A stretch of 35,085 nucleotides of DNA. Origin: Clostridia bacterium DTU030 (lineage in GTDB: Bacteria; Bacillota; DTU030). Shown one piece after another: positions 2,453 through 29,820 of this stretch. The DNA lies in assembly GCA_001513125.1 (NCBI GenBank), contig LFSN01000020.1:352-35436 (forward strand), written 5' to 3'. The notes beneath the pieces were generated by a model that worked only from the letters and a program-made list of their open reading frames with translations, had not been told where the DNA came from and searched no databases. Within the stretch, counting starts at the first letter, position 1. The number at the start of each line of letters is the position of its first letter. The translations under genes and the position numbers were made by a program.

Positions 2453-2572
2453 TGCCTCCACCTCCAGTTTGAAATATTTATACTTATCTATTATTCCCCC
2501 GGAGGATGGAATCCTTCCCCTGATGGTAGCTATTGTCATCTTCAAACACAGCATATAAATTGAATCTCACAA

Positions 2573-2773
2573 GCAGCATTTCTGGCTTCGCTCCCAGTTC
2601 TCCTCGCGGAAGAAACTTGCGCTCCGGTTCCTTGTCCAGCGGGGTCCCCGCCAATGGGACCTCCATGTCCCAGTGGCGGCTCCGGACCTCCTGTCCTCCG
2701 CCCCGCTGGCCTGCGGAACCGTCGCTAGTGCCCTTAACCGCTCGTCGAAATGTCGCTCCGCCAGAAATGCTGC
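2573..2773. mobile_element. Family B element: 201-bp MITE-like sequence with 14-bp inverted ends
   Basis: The ends GCAGCATTTCTGGC (2573-2586) and GCCAGAAATGCTGC (2760-2773) are perfect 14-bp inverted repeats. The interior is GC-rich with internal palindromes such as GCGGGGTCCCCGC, and holds no transposase. A reading frame crosses it on the minus strand but resembles no protein I know. A second, rearranged copy is at 26658-26805 in the opposite orientation, sharing both end regions. This fits a non-autonomous transposon relic or a folded repeat element; no target duplication was established. Confidence 0.6.
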
Positions 2774-2823
2774 CGATAATTGCCTGAAATGCTCCCATAC
2801 CCTCCCACTTTCAATTTTCTATA

Positions 2824-2878
2824 CGCCTGCGCTCTTTTATCCTGTGTCTCAATGCTGTTTTCGGGATACTTCCGGCAC
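2824..2878 (+). repeat. Family A element, right-end fragment
   Basis: This stretch holds CTGTGTCTCAATGCTGTTTT and then a TACTTCCGGCAC end, nearly identical to the right end of the full copy at 23613-23792. The left and central parts are missing. It lies 50 bp from the family B element. No gene is present from 2453 to 3097; the interval is filled by these elements, a GGGGACAGGGT inverted repeat (2929-2939 with 3014-3024) and a heptamer array. Confidence 0.6.
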
Positions 2879-2928
2879 CCACCTTTGTTTCGAAGCTTTG
2901 CTGGAAACTATACAATCGTTCCAACGAT

Positions 2929-3024
2929 GGGGACAGGGTTAGAATTCCAAAATGTATCGGACTAAGATATTTCCGATATAACCCACTGACAACGGTTTAA
3001 TCCCAAATTACCCACCCTGTCCCC
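2929..3024. repeat. Widely spaced GGGGACAGGGT inverted repeat
   Basis: GGGGACAGGGT at 2929-2939 is the exact reverse complement of ACCCTGTCCCC at 3014-3024, with 74 AT-rich bases between. It shares its GGGGACAG core with hairpins at 340-373 and 16644-16688. No coding sequence lies inside. It may be a small palindromic repeat unit with an insert; function unknown. Confidence 0.45.
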
Positions 3025-3065
3025 CAAAAGGCACCAATAAATTGTTATTTTTCCTACACTGCAAA

Positions 3066-15279: not shown

Positions 15280-15378
15280 GTGGCAGAGATCACCAGAAGA
15301 CATGATTTCTTTGACGACAGGAAGGCATTTCTGGTCTTCTTAATCCTGATCCTCCTGCTGTTGGGGGACTGGTTCTAA
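15280..15378 (+). CDS. Tiny single-span membrane protein, 32 residues
   Basis: GTG at 15280 is preceded by AAAAAGGAGGGAGACAA, one of the best ribosome sites in the window. The product has a charged start (MAEITRRHDFFDDRKAF) and ends in a hydrophobic helix, LVFLILILLLLGDWF. The layout resembles the short YjcZ-like membrane peptides made by spore-forming Firmicutes, often during sporulation, but there is no sequence proof. An in-frame ATG at 15226 would add 18 residues but has no ribosome site. The gene stands alone between the DUF3842 gene and a family A element. Function unknown. Confidence 0.68.
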   Translation: MAEITRRHDFFDDRKAFLVFLILILLLLGDWF

Positions 15379-15413
15379 GGGGTTGTCGGTAGTCGGTCGT
15401 CTAATACTATTAA

Positions 15414-15573
15414 TGCCGGAAATTCCCTTCCACAGCATGAGACAAGCCAATCTACTGTACGAGCTCGGCTCGTTCGGGCAGCGACACAACTCGCCCTTTC
15501 AGGGCGAGGCATTGTCGCTGCTTTTCCTCGCTCGCCTGAAAGTCTCAATGCTGTTTTCGGGGCACTTCCGGCA
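15414..15573 (+). mobile_element. Family A element, 160-bp copy with inverted ends and nested hairpins
   Basis: The left end TGCCGGAAATTCCC and right end GGGGCACTTCCGGCA are imperfect inverted repeats, extended by ACAGCA..GAGAC against GTCTCAATGCTGT. In the centre GCAGCGACA (15478-15486) pairs with TGTCGCTGC (15513-15521), enclosing TCGCCCT-TTC-AGGGCGA (15491-15507). The copy at 23613-23792 has the same plan with a changed but still paired inner hairpin. There is no coding capacity. Confidence 0.7.
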
Positions 15574-15664
15574 ACACGGCAGAATTAGCGACAACAATTA
15601 CAGCTGCAGCCCTGCCCCCTCGCACCAAAAACTGTCAATCGTCAATTGCCACAAGACCACCAAC

Positions 15665-15687
15665 GGGCGACCACAGGTCGCCCCTAC
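15665..15687. repeat. GGGCGACC-ACA-GGTCGCCC hairpin repeat
   Basis: An 8-bp perfect stem with a three-base loop, followed by CCTAC. GTAGGGGCGACC-type palindromes are a familiar dispersed repeat in thermophilic Firmicutes (family knowledge). Around it (15628-15745) are TGACAAT-like heptamers. The 15379-15798 gap holds only repeats and the comB ribosome site. Confidence 0.55.
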
Positions 15688-15798
15688 TATTTACCATTAA
15701 TTGCTAATTATCCCTTGCCAATCGTCAATTGTTACCTAACAATTGCCAGAGGCCGTGCTATAATGAACATATATAATACAGCAAAGGAGGTCACAATT

Positions 15799-16521: not shown

Positions 16522-16610
16522 CTGCTCAGACATGGTGTCGCTGATTTTCCCCACTCGCCTGCCCTCTATTATCCTGTGTGTTAATGCTGTTTTCGGGGTA
16601 CTTCCGGCAC
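16522..16610 (+). repeat. Family A element, right half, abutting the comB stop
   Basis: Starts CTGCTCAGACATGGTGTCGCTG, equals the right half of the 23.6-kb copy through GTTTTCGGGGTACTTCCGGCAC, and lacks the whole left half. The junction lies immediately after the comB stop, so the insertion or a later deletion ended at the gene edge. Confidence 0.62.
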
Positions 16611-16643
16611 CAGACACCCGGCTACTGGCTACTCACTATCGTA

Positions 16644-16688
16644 AAAATGGGGACAGTCTCCCTATCCAAAGGAGACAGTCCCCATTTT
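16644..16688. terminator. Long hairpin between convergent comB and pckA
   Basis: AAAATGGGGACAGTCTCC (16644-16661) pairs with GGAGACAGTCCCCATTTT (16671-16688) with a single A-A mismatch. A/T runs at both ends mean it can act as a terminator on both strands. The GGGGACAG core is shared with other intergenic hairpins in the window, so it may be a repeat that was recruited as a terminator. Confidence 0.65.
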
Positions 16689-16705
16689 CTGGCACGACCA
16701 ATCCT

Positions 16706-23612: not shown

Positions 23613-23792
23613 GTGCCGGAAGTACCCCTCCACAGCAGGAGACACACCAATCCACTGAACGAGCTCGGCTCCTTCGGGCAGCGACACAACTCGCCCCCTT
23701 CGGGGGCTCGGACATGGTGTCGCTGCTTTTCCTCACTCGCCTGCGCTCTCTTATCCTGTGTCTCAATGCTGTTTTCGGGGTACTTCCGGCAC
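23613..23792 (+). mobile_element. Family A element, complete 180-bp copy
   Basis: The ends GTGCCGGAAGTACCCC (23613-23628) and GGGGTACTTCCGGCAC (23777-23792) are 16-bp perfect inverted repeats; outer GTAATC/GATTAC (23598, 23808) suggests further pairing. The centre has GCAGCGACAC (23678-23687) pairing with GTGTCGCTGC (23717-23726) around GCCCCC-TTC-GGGGGC. The whole element can fold into one long hairpin. No reading frame of interest. The region 23433-24023 holds this element, two heptamer arrays and the hairpin below, and no gene. Confidence 0.75.
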
Positions 23793-23877: not shown

Positions 23878-23969
23878 GGGCTGGCCACTTTGCAAAGCCG
23901 GCGACTGCCCTTGGAGGTTGGAAGTTGGAAATTAGAAGTTCGCGGAGCCGGCAGCAAAGTGGCCAGCCC
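23878..23969. repeat. Large inverted repeat, 16-bp perfect core arms
   Basis: GGGCTGGCCACTTTGC (23878-23893) and GCAAAGTGGCCAGCCC (23954-23969) are exact reverse complements. Imperfect pairing extends outward (GATTTAGGTT against CACTAAAATC) and inward (GCCGGC both sides). The loop holds a GTTGGAA heptamer array (23917-23940). It may be a third palindromic element or the terminator region of the hydroxyacid dehydrogenase gene. Confidence 0.65.
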
Positions 23970-24023
23970 ACTAAAATCGACTCTGCCAAAAGCCTTATCA
24001 GGAACCAGCATGGACACCTGCCA

Positions 24024-26657: not shown

Positions 26658-26805
26658 CACTTCTGGCAGAGCGACTTTGCGACGAGCAGCAATAGCGGGC
26701 GTAGAGGGGTACTTCCGGCACACGATACCCGACTACCAACCATCTATTACCAACAACCGTTAATGCAATGCTCTGCGGTGAGAACCGGGAACGAGGCCAG
26801 AAGTG
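26658..26805. mobile_element. Rearranged family B element with family A sequence inside
   Basis: The ends CACTTCTGGC (26658-26667) and GCCAGAAGTG (26796-26805) are inverted repeats. CAGAGCGACTTTGCGACGAGC next to the left end and GAGAACCGGGAACGA before the right end match the reverse complement of the 2573-2773 element. The middle of that element is missing; in its place is family A right-end sequence, GAGGGGTACTTCCGGCAC (26705-26722) with the flank CGATACCCGACTACC. It is thus a composite of the two families. No gene lies between 26587 and 26911. Confidence 0.6.
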
Positions 26806-29800: not shown

Positions 29801-29820
29801 AGACGGGTATCGAGTGCCGG
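29801..29820 (-). repeat. Family A end fragment
   Basis: AGACGGGTATCGAGTGCCGG matches, on the minus strand, the right end plus flank seen at 26715-26735 (CCGGCACACGATACCCGACT). It lies between amrBA and amrS. Confidence 0.5.

Follow-up and report, generated by a model that had tools for sequence, protein, structure and literature searches.

A palindromic repeat family in a Clostridia bacterium, a probable member of a broad superfamily of mobile DNA hairpins in the Bacillota

Bacterial MITEs are short, gene-free and present in multiple copies, carry terminal inverted repeats, and share these ends with an autonomous insertion sequence (IS) in the same genome. The small interspersed repeats BOX, RUP and SPRITE were described from streptococci. 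Integron attC sites and the ends of IS200/IS605 elements are single-stranded hairpins which are recognised by their structure and contain conserved unpaired bases. For such structure-recognised single-stranded hairpins, targeting of the lagging strand has been reported (PMC6006769), and hairpins inserted inside other palindromes have been reported for REPs (PMC3733652). The repeat analysed here, termed family A, shows the anatomy of a MITE, but ends common to an autonomous IS in the same genome were not found.

The window, i.e. the whole stretch of 35,085 nt of Clostridia bacterium DTU030 that was analysed (contig LFSN01000020.1), contains two full family A copies and three degraded ones (Table 1). 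The original prediction had placed full copies at 15414-15573 and 23613-23792, and both were recovered as described on the plus strand, the second one running from 23614 to 23791. A fragment proposed at 16522-16610 comprises the rightmost 87 nt of a copy which a congener carries in full at the orthologous place (G002:C133:7825-8004), and the one proposed at 2824-2878 is a genuine right-end piece. In the case of 26705-26735 only the exact right end belongs to the element and the remainder is flank, whereas 29801-29820 is not supported: it shares only about 8 bp of the end and gave neither an end match (up to 3 mismatches) nor a model match. A chance origin of the window copies is excluded, because end matches are in excess over shuffled sequences (9 versus 1.9 +/- 1.3, with 0 of 100 shuffles reaching 9), the family covariance model gave E values of 1e-47, 3e-36 and 1e-10 in the window, and the genome holds 14 BLAST matches.

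Table 1. Positions of family A copies and their structural parts in the window
Feature	Position	Strand	Evidence or remark
Full copy, 178 nt, no ORF of its own	23614..23791	+	R2 E=1.4e-47, R3 E=2.4e-33; MFE -92.7 kcal/mol
Left outer arm TGCCGGAAGTACCCC (P1)	23614..23628	+	Exact inverted repeat of 23777-23791
Right outer arm GGGGTACTTCCGGCA (P1')	23777..23791	+	
Side hairpin CTGAACGAGCTCGGCTCCTTCGG	23655..23677	+	Fold
Central stem, 5' arm GCAGCGACAC (P3)	23678..23687	+	Pairs with 23717-23726
Central stem, 3' arm GTGTCGCTGC (P3')	23717..23726	+	
Apical hairpin GCCCCC-TTC-GGGGGC	23693..23707	+	Flanked by AACTC and CTC..ACA, as superfamily-wide
Second full copy, 160 nt, apical hairpin TCGCCCT-TTC-AGGGCGA	15414..15573	+	R2 E=3e-36
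5'-truncated copy (right 87 nt)	16524..16610	+	Family model match; full length in congener at orthologous place
Right-end fragment, ~55 nt	2824..2878	+	96% identity, E=9e-20 (BLAST)
Solo right end GGGGTACTTCCGGCAC	26706..26721	+	Exact 15-bp end match at 26706-26720

Both full window copies are intergenic, the one at 23614 lying between the genes of a RecD2 helicase and a 2-hydroxyacid dehydrogenase. They start with a TGCCGGAAGTACCCC-type arm, end with its reverse complement and have in common an inner arm pair, CAGCAGGAGACACA / TGTGTCTC..TGCTG, as well as a side hairpin, the central stem GCAGCGACAC/GTGTCGCTGC and an apical hairpin. The overall shape is a rod of about 160-180 nt, reaching up to about 235 nt in the genome G112, where extra sequence is inserted near the tip. 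Its variable outer stem is followed by inner stems and then by either a side hairpin or a long internal loop; a central stem leads on to the apical hairpin, which is capped. The outer stem of 12-20 bp is unrelated in sequence between lineages (TGCCGGAAGTACCCC; CTCGGGCATCCCC; GAGGCAGGTTCCCT; TGCTCGGGTTTCC; TGCTGAGGTATTATC; CCAACCAGTGTTAATCG), yet pairs with the other end in each copy, and in related families the central stem P3 is likewise replaced with pairing kept. Conserved parts are internal: the motifs C-GAAC/GAGC..CTCGGC and TTCGGG opposite TTCCTC, the AACTCG and CTCAAACA surrounding the apical hairpin and, in the right arm, CGTTCT/CGCTCT together with a CAA(T) bulge. An end-only minimal form exists as a 35-bp palindrome in the home genome (G000:C125:5541-5575).

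To determine number and spread, we used BLAST and three covariance models: R1 of the core, R2 of full-length family A alone and R3 of the superfamily. The 14 BLAST matches of the home genome (1.81 Mb, 144 contigs) reach down to E=5e-90; the congener G002 holds at least 13 BLAST matches and about 18 R1 matches, and the congener G001 only an end fragment by BLAST. Within the class, R1 matched 11 of 13 available genomes, with up to 22 copies; among 300 genomes sampled from the phylum, it also matched seven that lie outside this class. R2 recovered remote copies over their entire length (for most, E between 1e-13 and 1e-4). R3 gave full-length matches in 32 of the 399 genomes sampled from the phylum; these represent 18 genera, and many of the genomes had not been used in building this model. 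Elsewhere, genomes hold 0-24 copies according to the covariance models, and all five g19 genomes tested carry the element. These model searches were confined to the phylum Bacillota. A collection-wide scan with an 18-base core was rejected as a search tool, as it returned mostly chance matches in GC-rich actinobacterial contigs; its genuine matches were Bacillota MAGs from biogas reactors.

The check by covariance model suggested in the original prediction thus brought up further copies, and its statement that no named family is known agrees with our searches. Rfam gave no match over the element at gathering or relaxed thresholds, and literature searches on repeats of Moorella, palindromes nested in one another and structured motifs of ssDNA brought up no description in the sources within reach, which left out most subscription journals. 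The superfamily is homologous across at least 18 genera, and family A is probably one lineage-specific family within this broad group of DNA hairpins, which would be mobile, non-autonomous and about 160-235 nt long. If true, this small mobile family spans many Bacillota genera and would be unnamed because its sequence turns over while the fold stays; the covariance models make it searchable.

Presence and absence at orthologous places were compared for several copies. The 23614 copy sits in a composite of about 525 nt that is absent from G002, and the interval bearing the 15414 copy is absent or replaced in both G001 and G002. The 16524 fragment, complete in G002, is absent in G001:C114. A 410-bp insert carrying a copy was found in G243; in G025, G142 and G371 its flanks abut with 0-1 base between them, and in G311 they almost do. 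This insert is made up of a 173-nt rod, part of another repeat and shared end modules. The moving unit in this case is the composite, as the clean empty site covers 410 bp and not the 173-nt hairpin alone. No direct repeat is shared by the family A copies that were read. The orthologous empty sites are too eroded, and the intergenic flanks too diverged, for a junction to be made out; the two junctions of the clean Moorella-like composite show only CTCCT../CTCTTT.., with no certain target-site duplication. Nesting occurs in both directions: in the home genus, copies lie inside the palindromic repeat B (CACTTCTGGCTTCGCTCCCAG...GCTCCGCCAGAAGTG) at three loci (L029, L036, L037), and at L076 the central loop of a copy harbours a family B repeat. 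Taken together, we consider it very likely that the element is a mobile, non-autonomous repeat.

Further repeats were noticed around the copies. Family B is also found at window positions 2571-2790 (CATTTCTGGCTTCGCTCCCAG...CGCTCCGCCAGAAATG), is repeated in G002 and is nested with family A. Many family A copies are flanked, in inverted orientation, by degenerate short repeats, GTAGTCGGTAGTCGG / CCGACTACTGACTACC, for example at window positions 15355-15412 and 16611-16650; these are either part of the element or its preferred target. A palindromic repeat of a family C at 23878-23990 (GGGCTGGCCACTTTGCAAAGCCGGCGACTGCC...GCAAAGTGGCCAGCCC) is seen near other copies in the home genome as well, and a small inverted repeat, GGGCGACCACAGGTCGCCCCTAC, at 15663-15690 is of a type also seen near copies in other genomes. 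Inverted repeats of the GGGGACAGTC..GACAGTCCCC type at 16645-16695 and 2925-3030 resemble REP sequences, and the sole RAYT gene of the home genome (G000:C12:1135) might serve these. Two loci of G002 (L032 in C301, L035 in C304) have a common 67-nt left flank and copy, and their sequences part precisely where the element ends on the right; either the element was a site of recombination or the assembly forks here.

With up to 3 mismatches allowed, G243 has 89 and G025 has 24 occurrences of a module, AATAGACTTCTACCAAAAATGG, compared to 0 matches of reversed-pattern controls. Composites of about 355 bp that contain no ORF begin with this module at their 5' end (in G243 e.g. L492-L521), and their 3' end, CCCCCATGAGGGGCTCCTCC, follows about 335 bp later. 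In a sample of 30 copies, 28 are directly adjacent to CTCC/CCTC, a Shine-Dalgarno sequence in reverse complement (background 12%), and 20 are located immediately upstream of the start of a gene. The AATAGACTTCTACCAAAAATGG composite may be a mobile element with ribosome-binding sites as its insertion sites. In Moorella-like genomes the position of our element in the composite is also filled by a second palindromic repeat of about 290 nt with the ends CTGGAGGGTACAGG..CCTGTACCCTCCAG ('repeat2', L472-L491), as if the central hairpins of these composites were interchangeable.

For the inner hairpins of the two window copies, the original prediction had stated that both sides changed together with pairing kept. 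The change is no wholesale replacement: one C-G to T-A pair is compensated; beyond it, the hairpins differ by one extra C-G pair, and at the 3' shoulder (GCGA versus GCTC) two pairs are gained or lost. A compensated hairpin in two copies is weak proof of covariation and says little in favour of a function as RNA, since there are other reasons for palindromic DNA elements to show covariation. Within family A, pairing is hardly ever kept through sequence change: RNAalifold on 14 full copies found a kept double change in 1 of 48 pairs, and a separate count gave 86 one-sided changes versus 1 double change. Between families the picture is reversed, and the claim of kept pairing holds strongly. Here, 12 of 18 pairs are compensated in a structure-blind MAFFT alignment, which was not fitted to the model structure, compared to 46 of 48 in the model-fitted alignment and 43 of 48 in 17 held-out copies, the latter two counts being inflated by the fitting. 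In these held-out copies 95.5% of outer-stem cells are paired, as are 81.7% of all cells versus 38-44% with the partner slid, and 0 of 500 shuffles reached any observed measure. Many copies without compensation, the outcome named beforehand as speaking against the prediction, are therefore what family A shows, while the superfamily shows the opposite.

To learn about the type of selection, we folded the consensus of six genome-specific families and scored changes in single copies. Background expectation is that selection at the RNA level favours G-U over A-C. Pooled over the six families, one-sided transitions gave 120 G-U versus 129 A-C, and as both are equally frequent, inserted copies are not maintained as RNA. 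Post-insertion change in the copies is neutral with no sign of RNA-level selection. Double changes were kept in 91 of 158 cases versus about one third expected by chance, with the kept ones concentrated in G074 and G006, families with sub-lineages. These results indicate that individual copies decay, whereas the lineages that found new copies stay palindromic. Two processes fit the excess of compensation: a hairpin that is needed to move, or template switching that copies arm onto arm. The cause suggested in the original prediction, a folded form that is selected for or passed through in copying, is narrowed by this: inserted copies show no sign of selection as RNA, and the data fit a hairpin that is needed in movement and/or copying from arm to arm.

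The explanation we favour, and hold to be the probable one, is a MITE/REPIN-like non-autonomous DNA element whose hairpin or palindrome is needed for moving. Copies would be mobilised in trans by an enzyme that reads the folded single strand or cruciform and not a fixed end sequence; with such recognition of the fold, only lineages staying palindromic would keep spreading. Inserted copies would be dead ends that mutate freely, and arm-to-arm template switching probably helps to rewrite both arms together. That the folded form is required for movement seems to us, on balance, the better assumption. Several points count against this explanation: template switching alone could yield compensation without a structural requirement, no transposase, autonomous copy or recurrent neighbour gene was found, no target-site duplication is clear, the one clean empty site concerns the 410-bp composite, and the pair counts of the model-fitted alignments are inflated. 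The check for a transposase with the same ends, proposed along with the prediction, came out empty. End-pattern searches in G000-G004 and three g19 genomes returned no autonomous element or transposase between matching ends, only close pairs, solo ends or chance matches. All-against-all BLASTP of the flanking ORFs revealed no recurrent neighbour gene; it recovered only the repeats, loci that overlap each other and a single cluster of mixed content with an ordinary ABC-F-type protein at its head.

A more far-reaching version, which we put forward tentatively, is a phylum-wide mobile DNA defined by its three-dimensional hairpin, a rod with conserved loops that would be read in folded form by a recombinase or replication enzyme. 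Families would then be free to rewrite their ends and would amplify separately in each genome. A lagging-strand rule for the insertions was considered and rejected as not general. It fits G243, where on contig C1 the left ends of 10 of 10 copies lie on the strand opposite to most genes and switch sides at about 1.4 Mb together with the flip in gene orientation, but there is no bias in G074 and G006, and family A leans in the opposite direction.

Two other explanations are unlikely, though each accounts for part of the data. The compensation could be a by-product of template switching at quasi-palindromes, with ordinary movement and a fold that is not required. In G010:C113 (L144) the left arm, copied in inverted orientation and with slight divergence, has indeed taken the place of the right arm together with its flank, G-U intermediates are scarce in outer stems, and such arm homogenisation is known (PMC8604942, PMC7202029). 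However, homogenisation, which makes arms perfect, would not spare the asymmetric internal loops either, and these are conserved throughout the superfamily. Alternatively, family A could be a classic MITE, i.e. an internally deleted IS to which a DDE-type transposase binds at short, linear inverted repeats of the termini, with the remaining fold being incidental. The perfect 15-bp inverted ends, the intergenic location of multiple copies without ORF and the end-only minimal forms agree with this, but the ends differ in every lineage (TGCCGGAAGTACCCC, GAGGCAGGTTCCCT, CTCGGGCATCCCC, TGCTCGGGTTTCC and others) and the inner loop motifs are the conserved part; in addition, there are no clear direct repeats at the ends, and the end-pattern matches in G000-G004 and three g19 genomes yielded no IS that shares these ends.

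It is improbable that a structured non-coding RNA or mobile 5'-leader acting as RNA, be it a regulator or a terminator, has spread here. The stable rod-like fold with conserved internal loops would suit such a role, as would the location at ribosome-binding sites of the Moorella-like composite that is able to carry the element (28 of 30 sampled modules). Against it stand the lack of G-U excess over A-C in one-sided changes and the few G-U pairs in outer stems, the presence/absence differences even between congeners and the missing Rfam match. The orientation to codirectional genes is mixed overall (21 versus 27), with opposite tendencies in family A and the Moorella-like copies, and a terminator or leader role was rejected on this mixed orientation. 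A REPIN-like element moved by the REP-associated tyrosine transposase (RAYT) is very improbable and already largely refuted: hairpin formation, genome-specific subfamilies, intergenic position and compensatory changes are as in REPINs (PMC3116915), but Y1_Tnp (PF01797) is absent from G003, G006, G007, G008, G009, G025, G093, G112 and G243, all of which except G009 carry copies (3-22 in G006, G008, G025, G243 and G093), the models matched no copy in 18 RAYT loci, and family A lacks the GTAG/CGTC end tag. If the favoured explanation of a fold-dependent element is right, complete genomes that are rich in copies and have no RAYT allow it to be tested directly by looking for the mobilising enzyme.

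Compared with the known systems, the element resembles bacterial MITEs such as Correia/NEMIS, QMITE of Coxiella and MITEAba12 (PMC10969869) in being short, non-autonomous, intergenic and multi-copy, with inverted ends and a stable full-length stem-loop. In contrast to these, neither a parental IS nor direct repeats were found, conservation lies in the inner loops and the fold instead of the ends, and the sequence is GC-rich and not AT-rich. With REPINs and the REP-RAYT system (PMC3116915, PMC2817692, PMC3733652) it shares genome-specific families of intergenic hairpins and compensatory changes, but it measures 160-235 nt, whereas REPs are 20-40 nt long and arranged in doublets, and RAYT is missing in several copy-rich genomes and has no adjacent copies elsewhere. 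BOX, RUP and SPRITE of Streptococcus pneumoniae (PMC3049150) are small interspersed structured repeats of Gram-positive bacteria as well; their descriptions come from streptococci, and no known Rfam family matched the element. The resemblance to attC sites and IS200/IS605 ends, judged by architecture, is one of working principle only: integron cassette arrays were not seen, the element has no Rfam match and several hosts have no Y1 transposase. In this comparison, the repeat is a structure-conserved, sequence-fluid superfamily of non-autonomous elements that works like a MITE or REPIN.
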